Shown here one piece after another: positions 9,107-49,734 of a stretch of DNA of 52,574 nt. The DNA comes from Acidimicrobiia bacterium. Lineage in GTDB: Bacteria > Actinomycetota > Acidimicrobiia > Spongiisociales > UBA11373. The translations under genes and the position numbers were made by a program. A model generated the notes under the pieces. That model was not told the origin of the DNA and searched no databases. It saw only the letters and a list, made by a program, of their open reading frames with translations. The stretch lies in contig JBBDMM010000009.1 of assembly GCA_040878325.1 (NCBI GenBank), forward strand, positions 21,557 through 74,130, written 5' to 3'. Position 1 is the first letter of the stretch, and every line of letters begins with the position of its first letter.

Positions 9107-9113
9107 ACTCAAC

Positions 9114-10366: not shown

Positions 10367-10668
10367 TCGTCACCCCCGGCTGGTACATGGCGCTCGCCGC
10401 GGTGCTGTTCCTGATAGGCGCGTCCGGCATCCTCCTCCGCCGCAATGCCCTGGTGATGTTCATGTCGATCGAGTTGATGCTCAACGCGGTCAACCTCACC
10501 TTCGTGGCGGCCGGTCGCGAGCTGAACCTCATCGACGGCCAGATCTCGGTGCTGTTCGTGATGGTGGTGGCCGCCGCCGAGGTGGTCGTGGGCCTGGCGA
10601 TCATCGTCGCGGTGTTCCGCCGCCGGAGCACCGCCTCCGTCGACGAGTTGGCGGAGTTGAAGGGCTGA
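10363..10668 (+). CDS. nuoK: NADH-quinone oxidoreductase subunit K (cluster 1)
   Basis: NuoK (ND4L homologue) is a three-helix proton-pathway subunit. The 101-residue product is of normal length, with the conserved glutamates in [12 protein letters not shown] (helix 2) and [11 protein letters not shown] (helix 3). The start overlaps the nuoJ stop (ATGA), and the stop overlaps the nuoL ATG (TGATG). Confidence 0.96.
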
Positions 10669-12536: not shown

Positions 12537-12695
12537 GTCTCCAGTCTCCAGTCTCCAGTCTCCAGCAAGAGATGCGATCGGGCGTTTCGCAGCTCGCCAC
12601 GCCTTCCGCCTTCCGCCTTCCGCAAGACCCGCGCCTGCAGCACCGAACCCGATCACCCGTTCCCGCTGGAGACTGGCGACTGGAGACTGGAGACT
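12537..12695. repeat. heptamer repeat element 5 at the nuoL/nuoM junction
   Basis: GTCTCCA heptamers begin right after the nuoL TGA and end in GCAAGA (12565-12570). CTTCCGC units follow and end in GCAAGA again (12622-12627). A GACTGGA/GACTGGC array then runs into the nuoM start as GGAGACTGATG. TGA flanks both ends (12534-12536 and 12695-12697). If the element is removed, nuoL and nuoM would overlap as TGATG, as at the nuoK/nuoL junction. Confidence 0.9.
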
Positions 12696-12696
12696 G

Positions 12697-14196: not shown

Positions 14197-14398
14197 GTCT
14201 CCAGTCTCCAGTCTCCAGTCTCCAGTCCCCAGAGCGTCCTCCTCCGTGCCGAAGGCACGGGGGAGGTGGCGCCGCCATCGGGCAGCCTTCGGCCGCCTGG
14301 GGCGGTGACGGAGGGGGCAGCGGAGACAGCGTGCGCGCCGGCGCGCTCTTGCCAATCGCCAATCGCCAATCGCCAATTGCTCGCCCGAAGGGCAAATC
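14197..14398. repeat. heptamer repeat element 6 at the nuoM/nuoN junction
   Basis: Four TCTCCAG units follow the nuoM TGA. The middle has several perfect small hairpins (GTGCCGAAGGCAC, GCGCGCCGGCGCGC, GCCCGAAGGGC). TCTTGC (14347-14352, reverse GCAAGA) is followed by four CCAATCG-type heptamers (14351-14378). GAAGGG at the end can act as Shine-Dalgarno for the nuoN GTG. It is the longest and most structured element of operon 1. Confidence 0.85.
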
Positions 14399-20839: not shown

Positions 20840-21343
20840 ATGAGATTGATCGCCCGGATCGACTCCTTCCTCATCCCGTGGCTGCGCCGGTGGAGCCTGC
20901 CGGTCCTCCGGATCTCCCTCGGGGTCGTCTTCGTCTGGTTCGGGGCACTCAAGGTCCTTGGGGTGACTCCCGTTTTCGACCTCGTGGCGGCCACCGTGTA
21001 CTGGGTCGACCCCGACTGGTTCGTGCCGACCCTTGGGGTGGCCGAGATCCTGATCGGCATCGGTCTCATCGGTGGCTGGCTGCTGCGCTGGGTGCTCCTC
21101 GCCTTCGTTGCTCAAATGGTCGGCACGGCCCTGGTGTTCGTGACCCTTCCGGAGGTGGCCTTCCAGGACAACAACCCCCTCAAACTCACCGTCGAGGGTG
21201 AGTTCGTCATCAAGAATCTGGTGCTACTCGCCGCCGGGCTGGTGGTGGGGTCGACGATCGAGCCGCGGAAGAATCAAGAATCAAGAATCAAGAAGCGCGG
21301 GTCACCCTCGAGTCGTGATCCGGGGTCCTGTCTTGATTCTTGA
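20840..21343 (+). CDS. DoxX-like integral membrane protein
   Basis: From ATG 20840 the product has 167 residues with four membrane helices. The conserved DoxX-family start of helix 1 is seen as LRISLGVVFVWFGALKVLG, followed by the GVAEILIGIGLI helix. DoxX-type proteins are associated with thiol or oxidative stress handling in mycobacteria, but no specific role can be given here. A start 12 codons upstream is possible but would overlap the promoter. The last 23 or so residues are translated from the AATCAAG repeat. It converges on the phosphodiesterase gene. Confidence 0.7.
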   Translation: MRLIARIDSFLIPWLRRWSLPVLRISLGVVFVWFGALKVLGVTPVFDLVAATVYWVDPDWFVPTLGVAEILIGIGLIGGWLLRWVLLAFVAQMVGTALVFVTLPEVAFQDNNPLKLTVEGEFVIKNLVLLAAGLVVGSTIEPRKNQESRIKKRGSPSSRDPGSCLDS

Positions 21344-21353
21344 CTCTTGATTC
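21271..21353. repeat. heptamer repeat element 9, long inverted repeat between convergent genes
   Basis: Three GAATCAA heptamers (21271-21294) are matched by a reverse-complement arm ending at 21353, giving a stem of about 23 bp with one mismatch and a loop of about 35 bases. It covers the end of the DoxX-like gene and finishes just before the stop of the convergent phosphodiesterase gene. It could act as a bidirectional terminator. Confidence 0.85.
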
Positions 21354-21357
21354 CCCT

Positions 21358-22446
21358 CTAGCCGCCGGTGACCAGAAGAGGTATCCGCAACTCCGCATCC
21401 GTGGGCGCTCCGTGCTGGCCGATGAGGCTGTCGTCGCTGTGGCGATGGAGGAGGGCGTATCCCTCGTCGGCGATGAGCACCCCGTCCGGTGCCCGGGCGT
21501 CGAACTCGGGGTGACGGGTGCCGGGGCCCCACCAGTGCTCCATTTCGGACCGGGGCACCCAGATCGCCGGCAGCCGATCCGCCAACGAAGCCCCATCGCC
21601 GCGCACGAACATGGCCCGGGTGTCCCCATAGAAGGTTCGATCGTCCTGGTCGGCGTTGGTGAGGCGGACCTGATGGTCGAGTGGGATGTCGACGTGTCCG
21701 TGGTCGGCAGTGCCGATGAGTGCCGCCCCCGGTGGCATGCGCCGCGCCAGCCGCTCCCATAGCCGATCGACGATTCGCATCGCCTCGTGATACCCCTCGT
21801 CGTCCTGCCCGCCGACATGGGCGGCGAAGTCGACATGGGGGATATAGAGGAACACCAAACGACCCGGCTCGGCGGCCAGCGAGACCGCGGCGTCGGCGGC
21901 CTCGTCTTCGCTGGCCCACGGTTCGAACCGGGCGCCGCGGTAGAGCATTCGCGACATCGGCGATCGCTCGAAGTTCCATGGCTGGAGGGTGATCGGCTCG
22001 GCGCCGGCGGCGCGGAGGCGCTCCCAAAGATTCGGTGAGGGGAGGAAGCCGCCGGTGTCGTACTCGACTCGTTCACCCCACAGCGTCGACCACTGGATTG
22101 TGTTGATCACGGTGTCGAGGTCCGGCATCCAGAGCTGATACCCGAGCAGACCGTGCTCGGCCGGGGAGCGCCCCGTGGCGATCGTCGCCAGGCTCACTGT
22201 GGTGGTGGCAGGAAACGGCGAGTCCAGCGCTCCCACCCGGTGGGAACGCATCGTTCCGGCGGCGAGATGGTCGAGCTGGTGATCGCCGAGCCCGTCGAAG
22301 AGCACTACGACATACGATCGGGCGTCGGGCACCGACCCGGCCAGCTCCGGCGACAGCCCGGACCCCGGCGCCGACCCGGTCATCCGCCGCTCGATTTCGT
22401 TCACCAGATCGAGAAGGTTGGCGCCGGAATAGTCGGGGGAGCGCAT
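21358..22446 (-). CDS. type I phosphodiesterase / nucleotide pyrophosphatase family protein
   Basis: The 362-residue product belongs to the alkaline phosphatase superfamily (phosphodiest family). Metal and nucleophile positions are visible: VVLFDGLGD (first Asp), PATTTVS (catalytic Thr), IPHVDFAAH and GTADHGHVD (Asp/His ligands). These enzymes hydrolyse phosphodiester or pyrophosphate bonds; the substrate here is unknown. No signal peptide is seen from ATG 22446, so it appears cytoplasmic. A longer reading from 22497 is rejected because its 17 extra residues are translated repeat. It diverges from the RTX-amidase gene. Confidence 0.8.
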   Translation of the reverse strand: MRSPDYSGANLLDLVNEIERRMTGSAPGSGLSPELAGSVPDARSYVVVLFDGLGDHQLDHLAAGTMRSHRVGALDSPFPATTTVSLATIATGRSPAEHGLLGYQLWMPDLDTVINTIQWSTLWGERVEYDTGGFLPSPNLWERLRAAGAEPITLQPWNFERSPMSRMLYRGARFEPWASEDEAADAAVSLAAEPGRLVFLYIPHVDFAAHVGGQDDEGYHEAMRIVDRLWERLARRMPPGAALIGTADHGHVDIPLDHQVRLTNADQDDRTFYGDTRAMFVRGDGASLADRLPAIWVPRSEMEHWWGPGTRHPEFDARAPDGVLIADEGYALLHRHSDDSLIGQHGAPTDAELRIPLLVTGG

Positions 22447-22461
22447 TTCGGAGGAAGGGTA

Positions 22462-22570
22462 GGAAGTCGCCAGTCTCCAGTCACCAGTCTCCAGCAAGAT
22501 GGCCGTCCGCCTTCCGCAAGATCGCCTGCCTGCTCTTCCTTCTGGGGACTGGAGACTGGAGGCTGGAGGC
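22462..22570. repeat. heptamer repeat element 10 in a divergent gap
   Basis: GGAAG is followed by TCGCCAG/TCTCCAG/TCACCAG units ending in GCAAGA (22494-22499), then GTCCGCC/TTCCGC ending in GCAAGA (22516-22521), then CTGGGGA/CTGGAGA/CTGGAGG units. It has the same modular order as elements 2 and 5. It lies between the phosphodiesterase and RTX-amidase starts, so it is transcribed in at most one 5' leader. Confidence 0.88.
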
Positions 22571-25502: not shown

Positions 25503-26094
25503 CACATCGGCTCCCGCGGCTCCATCGGCGGCGGCAGCCGTCGCCGAGCGCTTTGGGGCCATGGTCGGTGCCGTCGCCACCAGCGGGGACTTCGCCACCG
25601 CCCGCATCCGGGTTACGCCCGACCAGTGGGTGGACACCCACCGCACACTTTCCACGCACCTGCCGTTCTTCTCGTTTCTGTCGGCGATCGACTGGGCGAG
25701 CGAGGTGGCGGTCGGTGATCCGCCGGAAGGCGAGGTGGCGGAGCGTTACGAGGTGTTCACCCGGCTCGCCGACGTGGGCAAGGGCGAAGGGGTGATCATC
25801 TCGACCGACATCTCGAAGGACGACCCGAGGCTCCCCACCTTGATCGAGGTCTTCGGCGGCGCCAACTGGCACGAGCGCGAGGCTCATGAGATGTTCGGCA
25901 TCGTGTTCGAGGGCCATCCCAAACTCGACAACCTGTACCTGCCCGACGGTTTCGAGGGTCACCCGCTCCGCAAGACGTTCCCGCTGCTGAGCCGCGAGGT
26001 GAAGCCGTGGCCGGGCACCGTGGACGTCGAGGCGATGCCCGGCACCGAGAACGTGGAAGCCGACGCGCTCGCGAGCGATGGGGAGGCGGAGTGA
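25483..26094 (+). CDS. nuoC2: NADH-quinone oxidoreductase-like subunit C (cluster 2)
   Basis: This hydrophilic structural subunit pairs with NuoD2. The 203-residue product from GTG 25483 has the 30-kDa signature [17 protein letters not shown] and [13 protein letters not shown]. It has an Ala/Ser/Pro-rich N-terminal segment of about 20 residues and an acidic C-terminal tail of about 35 residues, both absent from the cluster 1 copy. Its stop overlaps the nuoD2 start (GTGA). Confidence 0.93.
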
Positions 26095-27281
26095 CCGACC
26101 AGCACCTCCTTGCCATGCACCACTCCGAGGTCCAGGTCTCGGTGGAGCTGGAGACCCCCGACGTCACGCTCAACATCGGCCCTCAGCATCCGTCGACCCA
26201 CGGCGTGCTCCGCCTGGTGGCGAAGGTGGACGGCGAGGTGATCCAGGAAGTCGAGCCGGTGATCGGGTACATGCACCGCGGCTACGAGAAGCTCGCCGAG
26301 GTCCGCACCTACCCACAGATCGTCGCCCTGGTGTCGCGGATCGACTGGGTGTCGGGGTACGCCAGCGAAGTTCCGCTGATGGTGGCGGTGGAGCGCCTGA
26401 TGGACATCGAGCCGCCGGAACGCGCCCAGTACATCCGGCTGATACTCACCGAGCTGGCGCGCATCTCATCGCATCTGGTGTTCCTCTCGTCCTATCCGCT
26501 CGAACTCGGGGCGGCGACGCCGCTGATGCACGCCCTCCGCGAGCGCGAGCGGGTCCTCGAGCTGATCGAGATGGTCACCGGCGGCCGCTTCCACCCGAAC
26601 TTCAATCGGATCGGCGGCGTCAAGCCTGTCGCCGGGGCAGGCAGCACCCAGAAGAAGGCGTCGCAGGACCTGCCTCAGGGTTTCATCGACCAGACGCTGG
26701 CGGCGATGACGGCCGTGCTCGACGTATGCGACGACATGGATGATCTGGTCGTCGGCAACGAGATCTTCCTCCAGCGCACCAAAGGAGTAGGGCTCATCCC
26801 GGCCGACAAGGCCCTCGCCTTCGGGGTGTCCGGGCCCAACCTGCGAGCCTCCGGAGTGCGCTTCGATCTGCGCAAAACCGATGACTACCTGCCCTACGAC
26901 CGGTTCGACTTCAACATCCCAGCAGGCGAGAACGGCGACTGCTTCGACCGCTACTGGGTCAGGCTGCAGGAGATCCGCGAGGCGGCCAGCATCGTTCGGC
27001 AGGCGGTTACCACGCTCCCGTCGGGTGATCTTCTGGCGAAGGTGCCGCGGATCATCAAGGTGCCCAAGGGTGAGGTGTACGTCCGGGCCGAGAACCCCAA
27101 GGGGGAGATGGGCTACCACATCGTGTCCGAGGGCGGCCGCGGTCCCTACCGCTTGAAGATCCGCTCGGCGTCGTTCTCGAACCTGTCGGTGCTCCCCTGG
27201 CTGCTGAAGGGCCAGTTGGTGCCCGACATCATCGCCATTCTCGGCAGCCTCGACTTCGTGCTCGGGGACGTGGACCGATGA
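26091..27281 (+). CDS. nuoD2: NADH-quinone oxidoreductase-like subunit D (cluster 2), quinone-site Tyr replaced by Trp
   Basis: This is the 49-kDa homologue, 396 residues from GTG 26091 (overlap with nuoC2), a normal length without the extension of the cluster 1 copy. The pocket His is kept (GPQHPSTHG, His 37). The position equal to the Tyr of Thermus Nqo4 Tyr87 is Trp 86 (SRIDWVSGY; codon 26346-26348), whereas cluster 1 has RMDYLS. As I recall it, the Streptomyces NuoD2 also has Trp here, so this may mark a functional subclass. FHPNFNRIGG, NPKGEMGYHIVSEGG and the ending VLGDVDR are present. HRG at residues 62-64 matches the methylated-Arg site of the mitochondrial homologue; cluster 1 has HTG. 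Confidence 0.95.
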   Translation: MTDQHLLAMHHSEVQVSVELETPDVTLNIGPQHPSTHGVLRLVAKVDGEVIQEVEPVIGYMHRGYEKLAEVRTYPQIVALVSRIDWVSGYASEVPLMVAVERLMDIEPPERAQYIRLILTELARISSHLVFLSSYPLELGAATPLMHALRERERVLELIEMVTGGRFHPNFNRIGGVKPVAGAGSTQKKASQDLPQGFIDQTLAAMTAVLDVCDDMDDLVVGNEIFLQRTKGVGLIPADKALAFGVSGPNLRASGVRFDLRKTDDYLPYDRFDFNIPAGENGDCFDRYWVRLQEIREAASIVRQAVTTLPSGDLLAKVPRIIKVPKGEVYVRAENPKGEMGYHIVSEGGRGPYRLKIRSASFSNLSVLPWLLKGQLVPDIIAILGSLDFVLGDVDR

Positions 27282-28303
27282 CGGCGTTGTTCGAGAACTT
27301 CTGGGTGCTGCTGGCGCTGAAGGTCCTGATCATCGCCGCCGTGATCCCCGGTGTCGCCCTGGTGTTCATCTTCGCCGAGCTGAAGATCTCGGCCCACATG
27401 CAGTCCCGCATCGGTCCGTACTTTGCCGGAGGGCGGTGGGGATGGGCGCAGCCCCTGGCCGACGGCATCAAGTTCATGCAGAAGGAGGACCTGGTCCCGG
27501 CCGACGCCGACCGGCCCGTCTTCAAATTTGCCCCGATGGTGGTGCTGATGGGCACGCTGGCGGTGTTCGTGATCGTGCCGTTCGGACCCAACCTGATCGT
27601 CCGTGACCTCGACGTCGGCATCTTCTTCGCATTGGCTGCCGGATCGGTCACGACCATCGGCGTGCTGATGGCCGGCTGGTCGTCGGCCAACAAGTACTCG
27701 TTGATGGGTGGCCTCCGTGCCGGCGCTCAGTTGATCGCCTATGAGTTGCCGCTCCTGCTGGCGGTCGTCGGCGTGGTCATCCAGGCGGGCACGATGTCGA
27801 TGAACGGCATCGTCGCCGCCCAGATCGAGCCAGTGTTCCACATCGGCGAGGTCGCCATACGGCTGCCCTTCCTGCTCCAGGGGCAGGTGATCGGGTTCGC
27901 CATTTTCATGATTGCCGCCCTCGCCGAGTTGAACCGGACGCCGTTCGACATGCCGATCGCCGAGTCCGAACTGGTGATGGGCTACCTGACCGAGTACTCC
28001 GGCATCCGCTTCACGATGTTCTTCCTCGCCGAGTACGCCGGGATGTTCTCGATGTCGGCGATCGCGTCCACCCTGTTCCTCGGTGGCTACTACCTGCCGG
28101 GCATCCCGCTCGGGGCGCTCGACTACCTCGGTCCCCTGATCCTGATGGGGAAGGTGAGCTTCCTGGTGTTCGTGATCATCTGGATGCGGTGGACCTTCCC
28201 CCGCTTGCGCGAGGACCAGCTGCAGGCGCTCGCCTGGCACTGGTTGATCCCTCTGGCGTTGGCGAACATCGCGGTGACCGCGGTCGCAAAGGTGGTTTTC
28301 TGA
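27278..28303 (+). CDS. nuoH2: NADH-quinone oxidoreductase-like subunit H (cluster 2)
   Basis: The ND1 homologue has 341 residues and about eight helices, with [43 protein letters not shown] and [15 protein letters not shown]. The coupling loop is intact, so the subunit looks functional. The ATG overlaps the nuoD2 stop (ATGA), which puts nuoH directly after nuoD where nuoE, F and G stand in cluster 1. A 28-bp gap containing GGGGAGGGA leads to nuoI2. Confidence 0.95.
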
Positions 28304-28331
28304 TGTTCTACATTCCCCCCGGGGAGGGACC

Positions 28332-28808
28332 GTGGCGTTGAAGCTTCCGAAGGTGCCGGGAATCGGCCTGGGTAAGGGCATGTGGCTGACGCTGCGCACC
28401 CTGTTCAAGCGGCCGGTGACCATCAACTACCCGAAGGAGAAGGAGATCCCCGTGCCGCGGGCGCGCGGGGTGATCGCCCTCGACGTGGAGGCGTGCACCG
28501 TCTGCATGTTGTGTGCCCGGGAGTGCCCCGACTGGTGCATCTATATCGAGGGTCATAAGGAGATGCAGCCGCCGGCGAAGGAAGGCGGGCGCCCGCGCAG
28601 CCGGGCCACGCTCGACCGCTTCGACATCGATTACGCCCTATGCATGTACTGCGGCATCTGCGTCGAGGTGTGCCCGTTCGATGCCCTGTTCTGGTCGCCG
28701 GAGTACGAGTACTCGGAAGGGTCGATGTCGGCGATGCTTCATGACAAGGAGCGCCTCACCGACTGGCTCGCCACCGTGCCCTCCGCTCCCCCGCTGGAGA
28801 AGAACTGA
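28332..28808 (+). CDS. nuoI2: NADH-quinone oxidoreductase-like subunit I (cluster 2)
   Basis: The TYKY homologue has 158 residues and both [4Fe-4S] motifs intact: [12 protein letters not shown] and [12 protein letters not shown]. The GTG 28332 start has GGGGAGGGA as Shine-Dalgarno. With no NuoG in this cluster, NuoI2 would be the electron entry point, as in ferredoxin-using complex I relatives; that is inference. Its length is normal, unlike the repeat-extended cluster 1 copy. The stop overlaps the nuoJ2 ATG. Confidence 0.95.
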
Positions 28809-29347
28809 TGGACGTGGGGGCGTGGATCGACTGGACCCTGGACTGGCTGTCGAACGCGCAGAACGTGCTGTTCGTCGTAATGGCGCTGGCGATGGTGGCG
28901 GCGGCCTTGCGCGTCGTCACCAGCCCCAACGTGGTCCATGCGGCGCTGATGCTGGTGGTCGCCCTCGGGGGTTCGGCGGTGCTGTTTCTGATGCTGGGGG
29001 CGGAGTTCGTGGCCTGGGCGCTGGTGCTCGTCTACATCGGCGCCGTGGTCGTGCTGTTCCTCTTCGGCATCATGATCACCCGGGCGCCAACCGGACGCGA
29101 CCCGGTTCGCCTCGACCACAAGCGGCGCTGGCCGGCGGCGCTGGTGGCTTTCGCCACCTTCGTCACCTTGGCGTCGGTGAGCGTGGCGGCCTTTGAGGAC
29201 GCGGTGATCGAGGGGCAGGTCACCCGGACCGACGAACTTGGCGAGCTGCTGTTCACCCGCTACGTGATTCCGTTCGAAGCCGTGTCGTTCGTCCTGCTGG
29301 CCGCCCTGATCGGCGGCATCGTCCTCGCCCGGAAGGACCCTGAGTGA
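28808..29347 (+). CDS. nuoJ2: NADH-quinone oxidoreductase-like subunit J (cluster 2)
   Basis: The ND6 homologue has 179 residues and five predicted helices. The conserved helix 3 appears as [20 protein letters not shown]. The ATG overlaps the nuoI2 stop (TGATG). The C-terminal half carries a loop with [19 protein letters not shown] before the last helix, as in other NuoJ proteins. Confidence 0.93.
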
Positions 29348-29652
29348 TGCTGGTCACCCAGTTCCTCATCCTCGGCGCCCTCCTCTTCTCCATCGGGATC
29401 TACGGCGTATTGGTGCGTCGGAACGCGGTCCTGGTGCTGCTCTCGATCGAACTGATGCTGGCCGCGGTGAACATCAACCTGGTGGCATTCGGTGCGTTCC
29501 TCCAGGACACGATGCTCGGTGGCCAGGCATTCGCCTTGTTCGTGATCACCATCGCCGCGGCCGAAGTCGGCATCGGCCTGGCGATCGTGGTGCTCATATT
29601 CCGCAACCGGTCGTCGGCGAACGTCGACGAACTAGATCTGATGCGGTGGTGA
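29347..29652 (+). CDS. nuoK2: NADH-quinone oxidoreductase-like subunit K (cluster 2)
   Basis: The ND4L homologue has 101 residues and three helices, with conserved Glu residues in [13 protein letters not shown] and [12 protein letters not shown]. The start is ATG 29347 (TGATG overlap with nuoJ2); a GTG one codon earlier at 29344 is equally possible. GGAAGGA lies just upstream. Four bases separate the stop from the nuoL2 ATG. Confidence 0.94.
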
Positions 29653-29656
29653 GCCG

Positions 29657-31705
29657 ATGAGCCCGACCCTTGCGCTGTTCGCTCTTCAGGCCCACGAGCC
29701 GGGGCACCTGTCCGACGGCGGGGTGCTCGCCGAGTTCGCCTGGCTGATACCCCTCGTCCCCCTGGTGCTGATGGTCGCCATCGTCTTCGTCGGCAAGCGC
29801 CTTCCGTACAAGGGATGGGAGCTGGCCGAGGCGGCGATGCTGTTCGTGGCCGTCTACGGCGTGACGCTGCTGGTCATGAACGCCTCAGGCGGCATCTACC
29901 ACGAGGGGTCGGTCGAAATCGCCCGGATCGGGGCCTACACGATCGAGTGGGGATGGGTGGTCGACGGCCTTTCCATCATGATGTATTCGGTGGTCGGCGT
30001 GGTGGGTCTGGCGGTGTTCACCTACTCCAAGGGCTACATGATGGGCGACGTCCGTTACACCTGGTTCTTCGCGGCGTTCACCCTCTTCGCCGGGGCGATG
30101 CTGGTGCTGGTCTCCTCGGCGAACATGATCCAGCTGCTCGTCGGCTGGGAGCTGGTGGGCCTGGCGTCCTACCTGTTGATCGGTCACTACTGGGAGGACC
30201 ACTCCAACAACGCCGCGGCGATCAAGGCCTTCCTGACCAACAAGATCGCCGACGTGGGGTTGGTCATCGGGATCATCATCATCGGCGTCACCGTTGGGTC
30301 GTTCCGGTTCAACGACGTGCTCAGTGCGGTATTCGAGGGCGATTCGGCCCTGGCCCAGGTGGCATTCTGGGCAGGTCTGGCGCTCTTCATCGGGGCGATG
30401 GGCAAGAGCGCCCAGTTCCCCTTCCATGTGTGGCTCCCCGACGCCATGGCAGGCCCCACCCCGGTGTCGTCCCTGATGCACGCCGCCACCATGGTCACCG
30501 CCGGGGTGTACCTGCTGGGAAGGATGTTCCCGTTCTATCAGTCGGACGTGTTCGCCGCCGACGTCAAAACGATCATCATCGTCATCGGGGCAATCACCCT
30601 CTTTGCCATGGGCCTCATCGCCCTGGTCCAGGACGACATCAAGAAGGTGCTGGCGTATTCGACCCTGTCGCAGCTGGGATACATGACCGTGGCGATGGGG
30701 GCGGGGGCATACACCGCCGGCCTGTTCCACCTATTCACTCACGCCTTCTTCAAGGGCCTGCTCTTCCTCGCCGCCGGGTCGGTGATCCATGCGGTCCACT
30801 CCAACAACATGAGCGACATGGGTGGCCTGCGAAAATCGATGCCCTGGACGTACAAGACGTTCTTGGTGGGGTCGCTCGCGCTTGCAGGCATCTTTCCGCT
30901 GGCCGGCTTCTGGTCGAAGGACGAGATCCTCGCCTCCATCTCCTACGACGCCGGGCACGGGGGCGGGACCGTCGCCTCGGTGGTGCTGTGGATCGCCATC
31001 GCGGGCGCCTTCGTCACCGCGTTCTACATGGCACGGGCGGTCTATCTCACCTTCTTCGGCGAGTACAAGGGTCATGCCCATCCGCACGAGTCGCCGAAGA
31101 TCATGACCTATCCGCTGATCGGCCTCGCCGGGCTGTCCATCGTGGCCGGCTTCGTCAATGTCCCGGGGGTGTACACCGGCTTCACCGAATGGCTCGCCGC
31201 CCGTCCGTTCCCGATGGGCGACCATCATGCCGAGTCCATCAACTTCGCCCTCGCCGCCATCGGGCTGCTGGTTGCTCTCGCCGGAATCGGCGCCGGAACC
31301 CGCCTGTGGCGCAAGGACGCCGCCACCCAGGCGGAACGCGATCGGTTCCGGATTCCGGTGTTGTATCCGGTGCTCGAGCACAAGTACTACATCGACGACT
31401 TCTATCGGGTGGCGCTGGTCGATCCGATCAGGGGGCCGGTGGCACGGTTCGTCAACTGGACGAACACCTATGTCATCGACGCGGTGGTGAACGCCTTTGG
31501 CGGGTTGAGCATGGTCTTGGCGAAGGGCGTCTACCGCGGGATCGATCAGCGAGGGATCGACCTGGCGATCAACGCCGTCGCCGGAGCGACCGGGGAGGCG
31601 GGGGAGGCCCTTCGCCACACGACGACCGGGCGGGTACAGCAGTACGCAGGAGCCTTGTTTGCAGGAGCGGTGCTCCTGGTGCTCGGTTTGCTGATCTTCA
31701 CGTAG
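29657..31705 (+). CDS. nuoL2: NADH-quinone oxidoreductase-like subunit L (cluster 2)
   Basis: The ND5 homologue has 682 residues, 60 more than the cluster 1 copy. Conserved parts are LVGWELVGLASYLLIG, GKSAQFPFHVWLPDAMAGP, HAATMVTAGVYLLGR and DIKKVLAYSTLSQLG. The extra length is at the N-terminus and in the C-terminal lateral-helix region (VLEHKYYIDDFYRVAL). All proton-path lysines and the key Glu appear to be in place, so pumping is expected. The stop is followed by a strong GGAGGAGG Shine-Dalgarno for nuoM2. Confidence 0.95.
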   Translation: MSPTLALFALQAHEPGHLSDGGVLAEFAWLIPLVPLVLMVAIVFVGKRLPYKGWELAEAAMLFVAVYGVTLLVMNASGGIYHEGSVEIARIGAYTIEWGWVVDGLSIMMYSVVGVVGLAVFTYSKGYMMGDVRYTWFFAAFTLFAGAMLVLVSSANMIQLLVGWELVGLASYLLIGHYWEDHSNNAAAIKAFLTNKIADVGLVIGIIIIGVTVGSFRFNDVLSAVFEGDSALAQVAFWAGLALFIGAMGKSAQFPFHVWLPDAMAGPTPVSSLMHAATMVTAGVYLLGRMFPFYQSDVFAADVKTIIIVIGAITLFAMGLIALVQDDIKKVLAYSTLSQLGYMTVAMGAGAYTAGLFHLFTHAFFKGLLFLAAGSVIHAVHSNNMSDMGGLRKSMPWTYKTFLVGSLALAGIFPLAGFWSKDEILASISYDAGHGGGTVASVVLWIAIAGAFVTAFYMARAVYLTFFGEYKGHAHPHESPKIMTYPLIGLAGLSIVAGFVNVPGVYTGFTEWLAARPFPMGDHHAESINFALAAIGLLVALAGIGAGTRLWRKDAATQAERDRFRIPVLYPVLEHKYYIDDFYRVALVDPIRGPVARFVNWTNTYVIDAVVNAFGGLSMVLAKGVYRGIDQRGIDLAINAVAGATGEAGEALRHTTTGRVQQYAGALFAGAVLLVLGLLIFT

Positions 31706-31721
31706 GAGGAGGACGAGCGTG

Positions 31722-33293
31722 ATGGAGATGTTCGACGACGGGTGGGGCCTGAGCCTCATCGTGTTCCTGCCCCTTGCGGGCGCGGGGCTGATATTGCTGT
31801 TGCCCAAGGCGCAGGAAGCCCTGATCAAGCTCGTGGGGCTGGCGTCTGCCCTGCTGTCGTTCGCGGCGTCGGTCGTCGCCATTCTGCGGTTCGACTTCGG
31901 GGCCGCCGAGCAGTTCCAGTTCGGCACCGACCTCTCGTGGATCTCCGCCATCGGCTCGCGGTATCACATCGGCATCGACGGCATCAGCCTGCCCCTCCTC
32001 GTCCTCTCGACGCTGATGACCGTGCTGGCGATCGTCTACTCGTGGCACCACTGGCCGGAGCCGCACAACCCGAAGGCGTTCCTGGTGCTGCTGCTGCTGC
32101 TTGCCACCGGGATGAACGGCACCTTCGTCGCTCTCGACCTGGTGCTTTTCTTCATCTTCTTCGAGCTGGTGCTCCTCCCGATGTACTTCATGATCGGGAT
32201 CTGGGGCGACCGCGCCAAGATCCGGCTGCCGGGGTTCCGCCGCGAAGTGGAGACGAGGCTCTACGCCTCGATCAAGTTCTTCCTGTTCACGCTGTTCGGC
32301 TCCGCCTTCATGCTCCTCGGGTTCCTGGCGCTCTACTTCAAGAGCGATCCGCACACCTTCGACATGGTCGCCCTGGCCGAGGCCGGCCAGATGGGACTAT
32401 TCGACGGAACCTTCGGCGCGTGGGTGTTCGCCGCCCTCTTCATCGGATTCGCGGTGAAGGTGCCGATGTGGCCGCTGCACACCTGGTTGCCGGATGCCCA
32501 CACCGCCGCCCCCACCGTGGGCTCGGTGCTCCTGGCCGCCATCCTCTTGAAGCTGGGTTCTTACGGCTTCATCCGGATCAGCCTGCCGATCCTCCCGCAG
32601 CAGGCACAGGACTGGGCGCCGATCATCGCGGTACTGGCGGTGATCGCCATCATCTACGGGGCGTTGGCCTGTCTGGCCCAGACCGACCTGAAACGGCTCA
32701 TCGCGTTCTCGTCGGTGGGGCACATGGGCTTCGTTATGCTCGGCATCTCGACCCTGACGGATGTGGGCATCAATGCCGCCGTCATCGGGATGGTCGCCCA
32801 CGGAATCATCACGGGGATGCTGTTCTTCCTCGCCGGATCGATGCAGCATCGGTACCACACGCGTGACATGGCCCGCCTCGGCGGGAACATGAAGACGCTG
32901 CCGATCATCGGTGGCTTGTTGGCGTTCACCGCGATGGCCTCACTCGGCCTCCCCGGCCTCGCCGGCTTCTGGGGCGAGTTCATGGCGCTGCTGGCGTCGT
33001 TCAACCCGCTCGACGGGCTCAGCCTTGCGCTGTTCCGGATGGCGATGGTGGTCGGCGCGGTCGGCACCGTGCTCACCGCCGGCTACATGCTGTGGATGCT
33101 CCAGAAGGTCAACCTCGGGGAGCCCTCCGAGGAATGGGCCGGCAAGGACCTCCACGACGCCGACAAGTTCGAATTGGCGGCGTGGGTGCCGCTGGTGCTC
33201 GGCATCGTGGCCATCGGCGTGTACCCCAAGATCGTCTTCGGCGCCACCAACGACGCGGTCTCCGAGCTGGTTCGCCGGGCGTTCGGGGGCTGA
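31722..33293 (+). CDS. nuoM2: NADH-quinone oxidoreductase-like subunit M (cluster 2)
   Basis: The ND4 homologue has 523 residues from ATG 31722 (a GTG at 31719 is also possible), behind the best Shine-Dalgarno in the cluster (GGAGGAGG, 31705-31712). Motifs are FIFFELVLLPMYFMIGIWG, PMWPLHTWLPDAHTAAP and DLKRLIAFSSVGHMG. Antiporter-like pump subunit with about fourteen helices. The stop directly abuts the nuoN2 GTG (TGAGTG). Confidence 0.95.
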   Translation: MEMFDDGWGLSLIVFLPLAGAGLILLLPKAQEALIKLVGLASALLSFAASVVAILRFDFGAAEQFQFGTDLSWISAIGSRYHIGIDGISLPLLVLSTLMTVLAIVYSWHHWPEPHNPKAFLVLLLLLATGMNGTFVALDLVLFFIFFELVLLPMYFMIGIWGDRAKIRLPGFRREVETRLYASIKFFLFTLFGSAFMLLGFLALYFKSDPHTFDMVALAEAGQMGLFDGTFGAWVFAALFIGFAVKVPMWPLHTWLPDAHTAAPTVGSVLLAAILLKLGSYGFIRISLPILPQQAQDWAPIIAVLAVIAIIYGALACLAQTDLKRLIAFSSVGHMGFVMLGISTLTDVGINAAVIGMVAHGIITGMLFFLAGSMQHRYHTRDMARLGGNMKTLPIIGGLLAFTAMASLGLPGLAGFWGEFMALLASFNPLDGLSLALFRMAMVVGAVGTVLTAGYMLWMLQKVNLGEPSEEWAGKDLHDADKFELAAWVPLVLGIVAIGVYPKIVFGATNDAVSELVRRAFGG

Positions 33294-34811
33294 GTGTTCG
33301 ATTACCACGCCCTCGCCCCTGAACTGATCATCGGCATCGCCCTGCTGGCGACGATCGTCGCCGACCTGGTGTTGCCCGATCGGCTCAAGTACCTGGTGGG
33401 GGTGACCGCGCTGCTGGGGCTGGTGGCTGCGGCCGTTCCCCTGCTCACCCTGGCGCTCTGTGGCGATATCAGCGGATGCACCGACACCGGCACCAGGACG
33501 TTCTTCGGGGGGTCGTATGTGGTCGACGACTTCGCCCTCGTCCTCAAGGGGCTATTCATCGTCTCGGGCGTGCTGTCGCTGCTGCTGTCGGTGGGGTACC
33601 TCGAGAGCGACGACTACTACCAGGGCGAGTTCTACTTCCTCCTGCTCGCCTCGGTCACCGGCGCGCTGATCATGGCCTCCTCCCGTGACCTCCTGACGAT
33701 GTTCGTTGGCCTCGAGCTGGTGTCGGCGCCGGCGTTCCTGCTGGCCGGCTGGAGGAAGGGCGATCTGCGGAGCAATGAGGCCTCGCTGAAGTTCTTCCTG
33801 ACAGGGGTGCTCTCGGTGGCGGTGATGCTGATGGGGATGTCCCTGATCTATGGGCTGACCGGCCAGTTGACCTTCGGGGGCATCGCCTCGGCTGCATCGG
33901 TGAGCGGTGTGGGTGACTCGCCGGCGTTCGTCCTCGGGGTCGTGTTCGTGCTCGTGGGCTTTGCGTTCAAGGTGTCGGCGGTGCCGTTCCACTTCTGGGC
34001 GCCGGACACCTATCAGGGCGCTCCGACCCCGGTGGCGGCCTATCTCTCGGTTGGCTCGAAGGCCGCGGGAGTGGTGGGGCTGCTGGCGCTCTGCTACCAG
34101 GCGTTCTCGACGGTCCCCGAGATCTGGGGTCCCCTCCTGTGGGTGCTGGCGGTTGCCTCGATGACGGTGGGGAATCTCATCGCCCTCAAGCAGACCAACA
34201 TCGTTCGCCTGCTCGGCTACTCGTCGATCGCCCAGGGCGGTTTCATCCTGGTGCCGTTCGCGATGGCGGCCTCGTACGACACCGTGGGCCTGTCGGATGC
34301 ATTCTTCGCCTCGGTGACGTACGTGCTGGTCTATGCCTTCATGAACCTGGGGGCGTTTGCGGTGGTGATCGCAGTGGCCGCCAAGACCGAGAGCGGCGAG
34401 ATCGAGGATTGGGGAGGGCTGAACCGGTACGCGCCGGGACTGGCGGCACTACTAGGGCTCTTCTTCTTCTCTTTGGCCGGTATCCCGCCGCTGGCCGGAT
34501 GGTTCGCCAAGTTCGTGATGTTCCGGGCGGTCATCGGCGTGTTCGAGTCTCCCTGGGCGGTGGCGCTGGCGGTGATCGCCGCGGTGAACGCGGTGATCGC
34601 ACTCGTCTACTACGCCAAGGTGGTCAAGACGGTGTACATGGACGCGGTGCCTGTCACGGTCCCGGTCGACCGGGCCACCCAGACGCCGGTGGCTCGCCCG
34701 CTCGCCCTGGCGATCGGCGTCACCGCGGCGATGGTCATCGCCGTCGGTTTCTTCCCCCAGATCCTCGCCTTCTTCGGAGAAATCACGGAGCGGCTGGTAG
34801 CGGGGCCGTAG
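33294..34811 (+). CDS. nuoN2: NADH-quinone oxidoreductase-like subunit N (cluster 2)
   Basis: The ND2 homologue has 505 residues from GTG 33294. Seen are GLELVSAPAFLLAGWRKGD with the conserved Glu, SNEASLKFFLTG, FKVSAVPFHFWAPDTYQGAP and IVRLLGYSSIAQGG. It ends the second cluster. Immediately after its stop the intergenic repeats resume (element 12), in contrast to the repeat-free interior of the cluster. Confidence 0.95.
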   Translation: MFDYHALAPELIIGIALLATIVADLVLPDRLKYLVGVTALLGLVAAAVPLLTLALCGDISGCTDTGTRTFFGGSYVVDDFALVLKGLFIVSGVLSLLLSVGYLESDDYYQGEFYFLLLASVTGALIMASSRDLLTMFVGLELVSAPAFLLAGWRKGDLRSNEASLKFFLTGVLSVAVMLMGMSLIYGLTGQLTFGGIASAASVSGVGDSPAFVLGVVFVLVGFAFKVSAVPFHFWAPDTYQGAPTPVAAYLSVGSKAAGVVGLLALCYQAFSTVPEIWGPLLWVLAVASMTVGNLIALKQTNIVRLLGYSSIAQGGFILVPFAMAASYDTVGLSDAFFASVTYVLVYAFMNLGAFAVVIAVAAKTESGEIEDWGGLNRYAPGLAALLGLFFFSLAGIPPLAGWFAKFVMFRAVIGVFESPWAVALAVIAAVNAVIALVYYAKVVKTVYMDAVPVTVPVDRATQTPVARPLALAIGVTAAMVIAVGFFPQILAFFGEITERLVAGP

Positions 34812-34928
34812 GGAAGCCACCAGCCTCCAGCCTCCAGCCTCCAGCCAGAAGGGCCTTCACTTCCGCAAGAACTAGGCCCGCCACTGTTCTTGACTCTTGA
34901 CTCTTGCTGGCGGCTGGAGGCTGGGGGC
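34812..34928. repeat. heptamer repeat element 12 downstream of nuoN2
   Basis: GGAAG is followed by four CCACCAG/CCTCCAG units, CTTCACTTCCGCAAGA (GCAAGA 34865-34870), three TTGACTC units ending in TCTTGC (34902-34907), and CTGGCGG/CTGGAGG/CTGGGGG. A C-rich and a G-rich arm again flank the centre. It fills most of the gap between nuoN2 and the next lipoprotein gene. Confidence 0.88.
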
Positions 34929-34973
34929 GAGGCGCCGGGGAACCTGGCGGCCTACTTCTCCGTCTCACCCGTC

Positions 34974-35435
34974 ATGAAGAAACTGATATCTCTCATTGCA
35001 CTTCTCGCCGTGGTCGCTGTTGCTTGTGGTGACGACGATGCCGGCGAATCCACCACCACCACTCCCACCACTACGAGTCCCACCACCACGCCCACCACCC
35101 TTCCCGATGGGTCGGTGATCGCCGAGTTCCAGACTCCTGACGGCGAGACCTATCGGATCCTTCTCACCGGCGATGCCGCGGTCGCCGCCCGGGCGGCATT
35201 TGCTTCCGGGACCAACCCCGGGATTCCCAATGGGAAGATCCTTGCGGGCGATGGTGGCGTGAACATCGGCCACGAGTGGCACATCGTCGAGGTCGAGTTC
35301 GCCGACTTCGCCATCGAGGTGTGCGACGGCACCGTCTCATACATCGATGACCTTGGTTTTGACGAGTACGTCAACCAGCACGGCGATCGCTACTGCCCCT
35401 GGTCTGCAGAGTTGATCGGCCTGATCGACGGCTGA
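34974..35435 (+). CDS. lipoprotein with BP74-like domain
   Basis: The 153-residue product has a signal peptide ending in a lipobox (AVAC), then a Thr/Pro-rich linker of about 20 residues, then a globular domain. The latter contains GIPNGKILAGDGGVN, EWHIVEVEFADFAIEVCDG and RYCPWSAELI. This pattern recalls the N-terminal domain of BP74-type secreted proteins (tentative, from memory of the pattern). The function is unknown. Start ATG 34974 is chosen because it opens a clean signal peptide; the longer frame reads through the repeat element. It is exported and membrane-anchored. Confidence 0.75.
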   Translation: MKKLISLIALLAVVAVACGDDDAGESTTTTPTTTSPTTTPTTLPDGSVIAEFQTPDGETYRILLTGDAAVAARAAFASGTNPGIPNGKILAGDGGVNIGHEWHIVEVEFADFAIEVCDGTVSYIDDLGFDEYVNQHGDRYCPWSAELIGLIDG

Positions 35436-46303: not shown

Positions 46304-46305
46304 CC

Positions 46306-46331
46306 CAGCCACAGCCACAGCCCCAGCAAGA
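46306..46331. repeat. short repeat element 14 (CACAGC hexamers) after tuf
   Basis: CCAGCCACAGCCACAGCCCC leads into GCAAGA (46325-46330). The unit is 6 bp rather than 7, but the GCAAGA end is the same. It lies between tuf and rpmG. Confidence 0.65.
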
Positions 46332-46355: not shown

Positions 46356-46517
46356 ATGCCTAGTGACAAGCGGCCTCCGATCACGCTCGCGTGCGAGTCG
46401 TGCAAACGCCGCAACTACGTGACGAACAAGAACAAGACGAATACGCGCGATCGGCTCGAGCTGAAGAAGTTCTGCCGCTGGTGCCGCGAGCACACGGCTC
46501 ACAAAGAGACCCGGTAG
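46356..46517 (+). CDS. rpmG: 50S ribosomal protein L33
   Basis: The 53-residue product starts [17 protein letters not shown] and has two CxxC pairs (CESC and CRWC), so it is the zinc-binding form of L33. [17 protein letters not shown] is typical. Length is normal. It lies between tuf and a dehydratase gene, matching actinobacterial rpmG-had-secE order. Confidence 0.92.
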
Positions 46518-46592: not shown

Positions 46593-47453
46593 ATGAGCCA
46601 CCTCGCCGGCCTGGTCGGCCATTCCTACGGGCCGTTCACGGTTGAGGTGACCGCCGATCGGGTGGCCGAGTTCGCCGACGCCACCGGTGACGACGCCGCC
46701 AGGTGGGTGGAGCATGCGCCTCCGCTGTTCGCCAATGTCGCCCTGTTCGCGGCGGCTCCAGCGTTTCTCGAAGACCCGGCGGTGGTGCCGTTCACTACGT
46801 CGTTGATTCACTCCGAGCAGTCGTTCGAGTGGCATCGCAGCCTGCAGGTTGGTGAGCGGCTTCGAATAGTGGGCAAGGTCGAGGGGGCCAAGGCCCGGTC
46901 GGGGCTGAACCTCGTCACGTTCGGCCTGCAAGCCGAATCGGATGCCGGCGAGTGGCTCGACGGGAGGGCAGTGTTCGTGATGGCCGACGCGGCCGCGGGC
47001 GCCCTCCCCGAGCAACCCGAGCCCGCGGTCGGGGAACGACCGGCGACCGACCCGCCCGCACCGTCGAGGCCACTGCCGATTGAAGGGGAGCCGATCGTCC
47101 CGCTGAACGCGGGCGCATCCCGCCTCGACCTGGTGCACTATGCCGCAGCCACCCGCGACTGGAATCCGATTCATTGGGATCACGATTCGGCCCGCGCCGC
47201 CGGTTTGTCAGGGACGATCGTCCATGGCCTGCTCATGGCGGCATGGATGGGCCGGGCCGCGGCTCGTTACTCGCCGAACGCCCACTCGCTGGCGGCGATG
47301 AGCGTGCGGTTTCGTAAGCCGTTGCGACCGGCCGAGCCGGCGACGGTCACCGGCACCGTCGGCGCAATCGCTGCTGACGGAGCCGATATCGATCTGGTCC
47401 TCGAATCCGGGGGAGACCGGCTGGTGACGGGCCGCGCCCGGGTAACGCGATGA
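46593..47453 (+). CDS. two-domain MaoC-like dehydratase (HadA-HadB fusion type)
   Basis: The 286-residue product has two hot-dog domains. The N-terminal one (about 1-145) resembles the HadA/FAS1-dehydratase N domain (GHSYGPFTVEVTADRV). The C-terminal one (about 165-286) is MaoC-like with the active-site segment YAAATRDWNPIHWDHD and GTIVHGLLMAAW. In mycobacteria hadA and hadB are separate genes between rpmG and secE and dehydrate 3-hydroxyacyl-ACP; here they appear joined with a Pro-rich linker. The fatty-acid role is inferred from location and fold. The stop overlaps the sigma factor ATG. Confidence 0.82.
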   Translation: MSHLAGLVGHSYGPFTVEVTADRVAEFADATGDDAARWVEHAPPLFANVALFAAAPAFLEDPAVVPFTTSLIHSEQSFEWHRSLQVGERLRIVGKVEGAKARSGLNLVTFGLQAESDAGEWLDGRAVFVMADAAAGALPEQPEPAVGERPATDPPAPSRPLPIEGEPIVPLNAGASRLDLVHYAAATRDWNPIHWDHDSARAAGLSGTIVHGLLMAAWMGRAAARYSPNAHSLAAMSVRFRKPLRPAEPATVTGTVGAIAADGADIDLVLESGGDRLVTGRARVTR

Positions 47454-47998
47454 CCGGGGGCGGGGTCCAACGCGACGAGGCCGAGCTCATCGAGGCCGCC
47501 CGGGGTGGTGACTCGGATGCATTCGGAGAACTCGTCTGGAGGTATCGAAACAGCGTGTACACGCTTGCCGTCAGGCTCGTCGGTCCCGACCTCGCCCCCG
47601 ATGTGACCCAGGAGGCGCTGATTCGCGCCTGGCGTGCCATGCCGCGGTTTCGGGGCGACGCCGCACTGGGAACCTGGCTGCATCGGATCACAGTCAATAC
47701 GGCGTGGACCCTTCGCAAACGAGCCAACCGGCACGAGGTGCAGCAGCTCGACGAGATGCTGATCGACCCTGCCACCGGCCCGGAGCGAGCGGGGGAGCTG
47801 GCGGAGGTGAGAGCGGAACTCGGTTCGGCGATCAACCAGTTGAGCCCCGGTCAGCGAGCGGTGCTCGTGTTGCGGGACGTCTATGGGTGGAGCCACGCCG
47901 AGGTCGGGCGCGAGCTCGGCATCACCCAGACCACTGCGAAGGTGAGGTTGCATCGGGCGCGCAAGCGGGTTCGGTCGATCCTCGAGGGGTCGGAATGA
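47450..47998 (+). CDS. ECF-family RNA polymerase sigma factor
   Basis: The 182-residue product has region 2 (FGELVWRYRNSVYTLAVRL, then DVTQEALIRAWRAM) and region 4 (LSPGQRAVLVLRDVYGWSHAEVGRELGIT, shown here only by its ends LSPGQRAV and GRELGIT, with TAKVRLHRARK). It has no domain 3, as expected for ECF. ATG 47450 overlaps the dehydratase stop (ATGA), so it is translated from the same mRNA. Next is a cognate anti-sigma candidate. The target genes are unknown. Confidence 0.9.
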   Translation: MTGGGVQRDEAELIEAARGGDSDAFGELVWRYRNSVYTLAVRLVGPDLAPDVTQEALIRAWRAMPRFRGDAALGTWLHRITVNTAWTLRKRANRHEVQQLDEMLIDPATGPERAGELAEVRAELGSAINQLSPGQRAVLVLRDVYGWSHAEVGRELGITQTTAKVRLHRARKRVRSILEGSE

Positions 47999-48333
47999 GC
48001 GCTCTCATCTGTCGACTGGTTTCGACGGTCCCGCCTGACACGCCTCTGAATCGAGTATTGGAAGCCCACCGCGAACAGTGCCTCCGATGCCAGGCCGATG
48101 TCGCCCGTTCGACCGGCATGTCCCGCGACCTCTCCTCGATCGGGCATGAGACCCTCGTTGCCCCCGAGGGGCTGGCCACGACCGTGATGTCGCGGCTTCC
48201 CTTCCAGGATGGCTCGGATCCACGACGACCCCTGGTGGTCCGCCTCGCAGTCCGCTACTCGGTCGCCGCAGCGATAGCCGTAGCAACGGCAGCAGCCCTG
48301 ATTGCCCACGCCCTCGCAAAGCGAGAGCACTGA
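47995..48333 (+). CDS. putative zinc-binding anti-sigma factor
   Basis: The 112-residue product has the ZAS motif HREQCLRC (His-x3-Cys-x2-Cys, near residue 25) and one membrane helix near the C-terminus (VAAAIAVATAAALIAHALA). ATG 47995 overlaps the stop of the ECF sigma gene (ATGA), the usual layout of an ECF sigma and its membrane-bound anti-sigma. The ZAS motif often senses thiol redox state, but that is not shown here. Confidence 0.75.
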   Translation: MSALICRLVSTVPPDTPLNRVLEAHREQCLRCQADVARSTGMSRDLSSIGHETLVAPEGLATTVMSRLPFQDGSDPRRPLVVRLAVRYSVAAAIAVATAAALIAHALAKREH

Positions 48334-48340: not shown

Positions 48341-48434
48341 CGGCTCCGGCTACAGCCACAGCCACAGCCAGACCGAGCCCCCCCACCAATCTGCTTCTGA
48401 CTCTGGCCGTGGCTGTGGCCGGTTGGCTCACGGC
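48341..48434. repeat. repeat element 15 (CACAGC hexamers with inverted partner)
   Basis: GGCTACAGCCACAGCCACAGCC is here split by its hexamer period; a reverse-complement arm (GGCCGTGGCTGTGGCC, 48405-48420) follows after about 30 bases, so a hairpin of about 14 bp is possible. It lies just after the anti-sigma stop and may end that transcript. Confidence 0.7.
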
Positions 48435-48679: not shown

Positions 48680-48961
48680 ATGAACCGCGAGTTGCGGCGG
48701 CTACAGGAGATGGAAGAGAAGCGGGCGAAGGATCGTCGCGCTCAGGCGATGACGCAACGGCGTCGTAAGGAGCGCGTCGGCTTCCGCCAGTTCGTATCCG
48801 AGGTCCGTACCGAACTTCGTCGGGTGGCCTGGCCGGGAAGGCGCGAGACCATCACCTTCACCGTGGTCACTCTCATCACTGCAGGGTTCGTCACCCTCTA
48901 CACCCTCGGGCTCGACCTCACGCTCAAGCGCGGCATCCTGGCGCTTCTGGAGTTGCGGTGA
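48680..48961 (+). CDS. secE: preprotein translocase subunit SecE
   Basis: SecE clamps SecY in the membrane. The 93-residue product has a basic N-terminal half, the conserved FVSEVRTELRRVAWPGRRE amphipathic stretch and one membrane helix (TFTVVTLITAGFVTLYTLG). ATG 48680 follows GAGAGG. The stop overlaps the nusG GTG (GTGA). Confidence 0.93.
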   Translation: MNRELRRLQEMEEKRAKDRRAQAMTQRRRKERVGFRQFVSEVRTELRRVAWPGRRETITFTVVTLITAGFVTLYTLGLDLTLKRGILALLELR

Positions 48962-49734
48962 ACGACGAAACCCTTGACGACCTGACTGCAACACCGGACC
49001 CGGCCGACGATGCCGCCGATTCCCCGGGGGACGCGCTCGACCGCGCCCGTGAGCTCTTGGGTACGTCGATCGCCACCGAGGAGCGCCCCGAGGAGCCCGA
49101 GGCCGAGGTGTCGGCGGAGGAGGAGCCGGTTGGTTCCGCCCCCGGCGAGGGGGCCGAAGGCGGGGCCGAACCGGTGCGTCCGCCCTCGAGCCCGTTCGAC
49201 CTGCCGGGATCGTGGTTCGTGATCCACTCGTACAGCGGCTACGAGAACAAGGTCAAGGCCAACCTCACCACCCGCATCACCTCGATGCACATGGAGGACG
49301 CCATCTTCGACGTCGTCATTCCGATGGAGGATGTCGTCGAGATCAAGAGTGGGCGGAAGGTGACCGTGGCCCGCAAGCAGTTCCCGGGTTATTTGCTGGT
49401 GCGCATGTACCTCGACGACGACTCATGGGGCGTGGTCCGCAACACTCCCGGCGTCACCGGATTCGTCGGATCGGGTACCAAGCCGACTCCGCTGTCGCGG
49501 CGCGAGGTCGAACGGATCCTCGGCGTCCGCAAGGACGAGGAGAAGAAGGCACCCAGGTTCAAGCCGGATTGGGAAGTGGGCGAGACGGTTCGGGTCACCG
49601 AAGGCCCGTTCGCCGATTTCAACGGCGTCATCGAAGACATCAACCTCGACCAGTCGAAGGTCAGGGTTCTCGTCGACATCTTCGGCCGGGAGACCCCGGT
49701 CGAGCTCAACTTCGAGCAGATTCAGAAGTTCTAG
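48958..49734 (+). CDS. nusG: transcription termination/antitermination factor NusG
   Basis: The 258-residue product has an acidic, disordered N-terminal extension of about 80 residues, typical of actinobacterial NusG. The NGN domain follows (SWFVIHSYSGYENKVKANL, FPGYLLVRMYLDDDSWGVV) with a KOW domain at the end (EGPFADFNGVIEDIN). It acts with RNA polymerase. The GTG start overlaps secE. rplK follows after 14 bases. Confidence 0.94.
   Translation: MNDETLDDLTATPDPADDAADSPGDALDRARELLGTSIATEERPEEPEAEVSAEEEPVGSAPGEGAEGGAEPVRPPSSPFDLPGSWFVIHSYSGYENKVKANLTTRITSMHMEDAIFDVVIPMEDVVEIKSGRKVTVARKQFPGYLLVRMYLDDDSWGVVRNTPGVTGFVGSGTKPTPLSRREVERILGVRKDEEKKAPRFKPDWEVGETVRVTEGPFADFNGVIEDINLDQSKVRVLVDIFGRETPVELNFEQIQKF

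Follow-up and report, generated by a model that had tools for sequence, protein, structure and literature searches.

A conserved ECF sigma/anti-sigma pair beside secE in Acidimicrobiia and its predicted link to fatty-acid genes

Genes of the rpmG-secE interval

We analyzed a 52,574-nucleotide stretch of DNA (the window) from an Acidimicrobiia bacterium, in which a dehydratase gene and an ECF sigma/anti-sigma gene pair lie between rpmG and secE. The features of this interval are as follows, numbered from the first letter of the window.

46356..46517, + strand: rpmG (ribosomal protein L33), the left border; an ORF with orthologs in the same place
46593..47453, + strand: fused HadA-HadB-like (3R)-hydroxyacyl-ACP dehydratase, a double hotdog with DWNPIH in the second domain
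47442..47470, + strand: predicted ECF-sigma promoter, GTAAC (47442-47446)-N18-GTC (47465-47467)CAA, spanning the end of hadAB and the start codon of the sigma
47450..47998, + strand: ECF sigma factor of the secE-locus clade, 182 aa
47995..48333, + strand: putative short ZAS-type anti-sigma, 112 aa, with one C-terminal transmembrane helix
48534..48608, + strand: tRNA-Trp (CCA), the right border
48680..48961, + strand: secE, from the ORF and profile matches
48958..49734, + strand: nusG, from the ORF and searches

Further out, tuf lies upstream on the rpmG side and nusG past secE. The sequence-only reading had described a fused HadA-HadB-like gene, an ECF sigma gene and a ZAS anti-sigma gene chained by ATGA in the secE locus, and both the gene order and the two 4-nt ATGA overlaps (hadAB/sigma and sigma/anti-sigma) were confirmed in the window. 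In mycobacteria, the rpmG-secE interval holds hadA-hadB-hadC, which encode the FAS-II dehydratase; the HadAB-like gene takes their place here, as had been proposed, and NCBIfam models of HadA and HadB match its product. Unlike the mycobacterial cluster, the window has one fused protein and no hadC, followed by the sigma/anti-sigma pair. No sigma-70 promoter or terminator was found on the + strand of the interval. By eye, a CAGCCACAGCCACAG repeat was noted 3' of tuf (46304-46325) and again 3' of the anti-sigma gene (48345-48375), the second copy with an inverted partner near 48400. Elsewhere in the window, dispersed intergenic repeats with the translations SPVSSLQSPVSS or GDWRLETGDWRL occur at about 3370-3560, 8870-9200, 12400, 14200 and 21300-22500, and ORFs for complex I (nuo) subunits, recognized by eye from translations, form two separate stretches (600-16000 and 26000-35000). 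A paralogous nuo cluster is mentioned for Ca. Actinomarinales (PMC7771536).

The HadAB-like ORF encodes 286 residues that match Pfam FAS1_DH_region (7-106) and MaoC (177-253), and its predicted structure is a double hotdog of high confidence (pLDDT 95), with a non-catalytic and a catalytic domain, the latter carrying DxNPxH as in HadAB-type dehydratases. The best whole-length structure matches of this model were MSMEG_6754 and MaoC-like double-hotdog dehydratases (4v12 and 5i7n, E ~1e-21), although the window protein has only 22-23% identity to them. Among NCBIfam models the best was fused_HadA_HadB (NF040620), at 62 bits under a cut-off of 350; scores also fell below the equivalog cut-offs of NF040624 (45 vs. 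180 bits) and NF010246 (38 vs. 203 bits). The window protein is HadAB-like and is not fileable as an NCBIfam equivalog, and the earlier HadA-HadB identification is borne out at that level by the best model, the DxNPxH motif and the double-hotdog fold. A HadAB ortholog (E ≤1e-37) was present in 48 of 59 relatives, with the catalytic DxNPxH of the second half retained in all 48 homologues of the home order and the sigma gene adjacent in 47 of the 48, more than would be expected by chance. The distance between the two genes was -4 in 20 of these 47 loci, +4 in 17 and some other value in 10. The sole exception is genome G021, whose locus keeps the fused hadAB and has no sigma or anti-sigma gene between hadAB and tRNA-Trp (L076). 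Outside the home order, hadAB-like genes occurred at only 2 of 60 class loci; elsewhere, where rpmG was visible, the sigma gene lay directly 3' of it.

The sigma factor contains just the two ECF regions, sigma2 and sigma4 (Pfam Sigma70_r2 and r4_2), and passes the sigma70-ECF model TIGR02937 with 96.8 bits vs. a cut-off of 42.9, placing it among the ECF (group IV) factors. It was found at E ≤1e-35 in 138 of 246 Acidimicrobiia genomes, and in all 60 class loci fetched from outside the home order (out of 71 sigma matches) at least one of tuf, rpmG, tRNA-Trp, secE and nusG stood beside it. When 20 class loci without a strong sigma match were read, 6 held a diverged sigma, 11 were cleanly empty and 3 could not be judged; since 11 of the 17 assessable genomes have an empty interval, the module is dispensable. 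In one of the diverged cases (L271) the sigma gene directly abuts tRNA-Trp and leaves no room for an anti-sigma gene. A profile search of the phylum matched the sigma in 75 of 296 genomes (E ≤1e-45), and several Actinomycetota outside the class show the order (hadA-hadB-)sigma-tRNA-Trp-secE. Many other ECF candidates occur in the class genomes, and in a tree of 131 sequences the 63 locus sigmas formed a group separate from other ECFs except for two intruding sequences (support 0.916); one of these two, an Acidimicrobiaceae record, carries the motif described below as well. Eight class genomes of one genus, only 0.9-1.1 Mb in size, also carry the sigma, as their single ECF candidate in seven and as one of two in the eighth; each of the five such loci that were read has the sigma with a ZAS protein beside secE, and an OCS155-cluster record (GC 33%) has the same gene order. 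The survey of rpmG-secE intervals for which the sequence-only reading had called thus places the pair there through most of Acidimicrobiia and in other Actinomycetota lineages, and it rules out a pair confined to one strain, the outcome that would have told against that reading. From the tree and the spread of the locus, the interval appears to be old: it probably housed both hadAB and the sigma gene since deep in Actinomycetota, and lineages have since kept hadAB, the sigma, both or neither. The deep feature of the locus is the sigma/anti-sigma pair, hadAB being mostly absent outside the home order.

The 112-aa protein encoded after the sigma carries HREQCLRC, an instance of HxxxCxxC, and a single C-terminal hydrophobic helix. 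It has the ZAS features, namely HxxxCxxC with an upstream Cys/His ligand and a gene overlapping that of an ECF factor, and is preceded in the window by GAGGGG five bases 5' of its ATG. It had no Pfam match, and Foldseek of its model gave no match at E ≤0.001; RseA, RsiW and RslA were among the top four rows of weak fold matches, all with Z <5. A ZAS protein follows the sigma in 97 of 107 loci, a set without L076, which has no sigma, without L087-L096, which lack one or duplicate other loci, and without L097/L098, which are other ECFs; L084 and L086 were kept despite no flank gene being found there. The protein is predicted to inhibit the sigma. Of 96 relatives (window excluded), 92 had a helix score of at least 1.6; a median of 10 residues followed the helix, so that the anti-sigma has almost no extracytoplasmic part. 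Envelope or redox stress, suggested by the sequence-only reading, is at most a candidate signal. Because the protein ends about 10 residues after its helix, its sensing is presumably limited to the membrane or to its own zinc thiols, unless it is cleaved or displaced by a factor encoded elsewhere. In family f36 (L117, L120 and L146) the anti-sigma is down to 61-67 residues and has lost the zinc motif, and the sigma is kept.

Four possible metal ligands (C6, H25, C29 and C32) show no variation in an alignment of 34 anti-sigmas, which were picked among those with the ZAS motif. RsrA and similar ZAS proteins are redox switches, and the C-H-C-C protein could likewise be an RsrA-like switch for thiol stress, with lipid genes only part of an oxidative-stress regulon. 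We consider this unlikely: no thiol-redox gene was recognized among the motif-site contexts examined (a minority of all sites), ZAS proteins such as RsiW need not sense redox, and families f11, f24 and f36 include some proteins downstream of the sigma without the ZAS motif.

A promoter motif at the sigma gene

The motif GTAAC-N18-GTC lies within -300..+60 of the sigma start in about 66-67 of 107 loci. When spacings of 12 to 24 were counted, only 18 stood out (the 12 others gave 0-4 each, and the antisense strand 0-1), and the A of GTCNNA was present in 67 of 67 motif sites, though it had not been selected for. We infer that the sigma binds GTAAC-N18-GTCNNA. An exact motif was missing at the sigma gene in 40 of the 107 loci, including all 5 loci of the streamlined family f12. 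Outside the home order, the motif is mostly a few bases 5' of the sigma start, a distance that fits leaderless or nearly leaderless messages. It also precedes the sigma outside the class, with a spacing of 17 or 18; of the 80 loci of one set only 14 have it, and each of these records bears the name Acidimicrobiia (or that of a rank inside the class), Actinobacteria or Actinomycetota.

In the home order, the motif overlaps the start of the gene. In the 32 order sites that have it, the spacer contains the ATG or GTG, the T of this codon being present in 30 of the 32 and its G likewise in 30; the GTC of the window forms codon 6 of the sigma. It is possible, but rather doubtful, that GTAAC...GTC is here a remnant, or a constraint on the protein (V-Q/E at sigma codons 6-7), and not a working promoter; the motif is embedded in the sigma reading frame, the window has no in-frame start codon closely 3' of it, and it is missing from 15 of 47 order loci. 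However, GTAAC is retained where it is hadAB coding sequence in some genomes and where it forms the hadAB stop codon in others, and the family of the window keeps the motif in 10 of 10 loci. All 32 sites have A as the third codon base, whereas GAA and CAA make up 27% of such codons; codon use cannot explain this (5e-19 by codon use alone, relatedness ignored). A promoter placed across the sigma start codon would probably supply anti-sigma and not sigma, and we therefore expect the sigma-driven message of the home order to serve the anti-sigma. No promoter motif was seen by eye upstream of hadAB, in the rpmG-hadAB gap, and since hadAB lies upstream of the sigma-dependent promoter, hadAB as a target of the sigma is not supported.

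The motif at fatty-acid genes of relatives

We then considered where else the motif occurs. A scan of 30 class genomes, with one first-listed, unselected match per genome, returned 7 of the sigma's own sites and 23 others, 9 of which start 11-42 nt 5' of fatty-acid genes: FabD (L318, L335 and L338), the carboxyltransferase of acyl-CoA carboxylase (L315 and L316) and ligases of the acyl-AMP type (L320, L323, L325 and L332). The other 14 lie inside ORFs or 5' of ORFs that are doubtful or unrelated, one example being a NadB-like gene (L329). A further 20 class sites, kept outside the 9/23, were chosen by eye from a sequence list; 5 repeat earlier loci and 15 are new. Their neighbors include FabI (L345 and L355), a PlsC-type protein (L344), FabD (L349, L358 and L359), the ligase (L350 and L356), the carboxyltransferase (L357) and a 4HBT protein (L354), and the rest are not lipid genes. 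In the home order, 30 genomes were scanned with a pattern that skips most of the sigma's own sites; 6 of the 30 loci returned lie at fabD, with 12-13 nt between the -10 element and the start codon, in families f2 to f5, and the 24 others do not, one being at a glyoxalase-fold protein. Pfam searches with 10 downstream proteins matched six class and two order genes as named and gave no hit for two; the remaining downstream genes were named by eye from sequence. In L339, a perfect motif lies 12 nt before the start of an ORF (1536-1913) whose 126-aa product has a membrane helix and matched nothing in Pfam; this ORF is a further possible target.

Motif totals were level with or below those of a reversed control pattern (135 vs. 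133 in the 30 class genomes, and 86 vs. 131 in the 30 order genomes). A large regulon is rejected on these numbers, and the case therefore rests on the positions of the sites. Crude chance estimates for these positions are 4e-36 (class) and 1e-24 (order), or 2e-22 for the 9/23 if 100 lipid genes are allowed. The motif sites at lipid genes agree with those at the sigma gene in spacing, in GTCNNA and in lying equally close to the start codon, and in a small control of sigma-less class genomes with a FabD match it was found at fabD in 0 of 6. One genome with a diverged sigma likewise had no motif at fabD. We consider it decidedly improbable that the interval is only a conserved landing place, its sigma running an unrelated stress response and the lipid-gene sites belonging to another ECF factor with the same -35: 58 of 60 class loci outside the order have no hadAB beside the sigma, site counts do not rise above the control, other ECF candidates are many and sigma-D of C. 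glutamicum, also an ECF factor, uses a -35 of GTAAC (PMC6338062), but the likeness of the sites at lipid and sigma genes and the motif-free fabD of sigma-less genomes speak against it.

The picture differs in the window's own family. No motif was found at fabD in any of its 10 readable loci, own genome included (one of the ten genomes has its sigma locus off the contig), and a relaxed motif, with one mismatch or an exact match at spacing 17 or 19, gave one far-upstream match (L399) and nothing at fabD. In the window's own genome the only motif besides that of the sigma gene lies inside a Rep-like ORF, with no other credible site. A site in a relative of family f1 (L367) was rejected as a lipid-gene site, its neighbor being an L25-like gene. 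The streamlined f12 genomes also had no motif at fabD (0 of 8). The earlier proposal that this locus ties lipid synthesis to the sigma is thus upheld by promoter motifs at fatty-acid genes in relatives (9/23 and 6/30) and not in the family from which it was drawn, where fabD is motif-free in 10 of 10. We regard the link as a promoter-based prediction that applies to some 16 families of relatives (12 outside the order and 4 inside), a figure counted from the loci with lipid-gene sites.

A predicted lipid switch and its relation to known systems

ECF factors with comparable roles or partners are known. Sigma-W/RsiW is likewise an ECF factor with a zinc anti-sigma, and RsiW was a weak fold match (Z 4.4); however, it comes from a Firmicute, its promoter motif and neighborhood differ from those of the window, and RsiW has a cleaved extracytoplasmic part. 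The locus of sigma-D also differs from the secE locus. A profile of the clade matched sigma-E/SigW-type structures with up to 153 bits and the sigma-D region-4 chain with 41 bits over 72 residues. Corynebacterial and mycobacterial sigma-D/RsdA also pair an ECF sigma with a membrane-anchored anti-sigma and a -35 of GTAAC, and the described regulon includes a fatty acid ligase (fadD2) and mycolate genes (PMC6338062, PMC11175481). The -10 given for sigma-D is GAT, whereas that of the window's clade is GTC, and RsdA is given a periplasmic domain of about 160 residues vs. about 10 residues past the helix (median 10) in the clade; in these two features the clade departs from the SigD/RsdA system. 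Another ECF factor, SigX of Pseudomonas aeruginosa, increases FabD, subunits of acetyl-CoA carboxylase and further FAS enzymes when overproduced (PMC3875570); it belongs to a Gammaproteobacterium, and no discernible consensus is reported upstream of its targets. The same source describes activation of fabF by Bacillus subtilis sigma-W from a promoter inside fabHa (PMC3875570). ECF control of lipid synthesis is therefore already known, and it is the secE-locus clade, its place and its motif that appear to be new. Among open-licence papers, we found none on the secE-locus sigma group, on a sigma between rpmG and secE, or on ECF regulation of lipids in Acidimicrobiia.

We think it likely that the rpmG-secE interval holds an ancient, self-regulated ECF/ZAS switch that runs fatty-acid genes in most of the class. 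This proposal builds on gene order, conservation, the motif and the positions of its targets, with binding, inhibition, signal, feedback direction and the HadAB substrate as its predicted parts. A membrane-tethered ZAS anti-sigma would hold the ECF sigma, which would recognize GTAAC-N18-GTCNNA; upon release, the sigma would drive transcription of the pair that encodes it and its anti-sigma; in most of the class it would also transcribe fabD and the genes for the acyl-CoA carboxylase carboxyltransferase and an acyl-AMP/CoA ligase, with fabI and a PlsC-type acyltransferase as candidate targets in single cases. HadAB may be the dehydratase of the same FAS-II pathway, read together with the sigma from an upstream promoter and not driven by it. 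In the home order (presumably UBA5794) the promoter would have slid over the sigma start codon; sigma protein would then come from read-through across rpmG-hadAB and the sigma-driven transcript would yield mainly anti-sigma, which would close a negative-feedback loop. The window's own family may have lost the link to fabD, or the link may have changed its sequence there.

A more far-reaching version, which we offer only tentatively, is a previously undescribed homeostat as old as the phylum that would couple fatty-acid synthesis to the core of translation and secretion, and in which a membrane-buried anti-sigma with no outside sensor would read the bilayer (or its zinc thiols) and free the sigma for malonyl-CoA supply, fabD and acyl activation; the factor would be the only alternative sigma in the streamlined marine Actinomarinales, and UBA5794 would have been rewired to negative feedback. 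Genomes of Ca. Actinomarinales are tabulated with two sigma factors each (PMC7771536), and the secE-locus sigma may be one of the two. If these organisms do keep it as their second sigma, control of membrane lipids may be their one remaining regulatory decision of this kind.

Acidimicrobiia are common in soils and oceans and have little genetics, and the motif, derived purely from sequence, gives them a candidate lipid regulon. The promoter that overlaps the sigma start codon in UBA5794 provides a testable case of a feedback loop switching sign. The motif also offers an explanation for why a sigma/anti-sigma pair may have been kept beside secE across the class.
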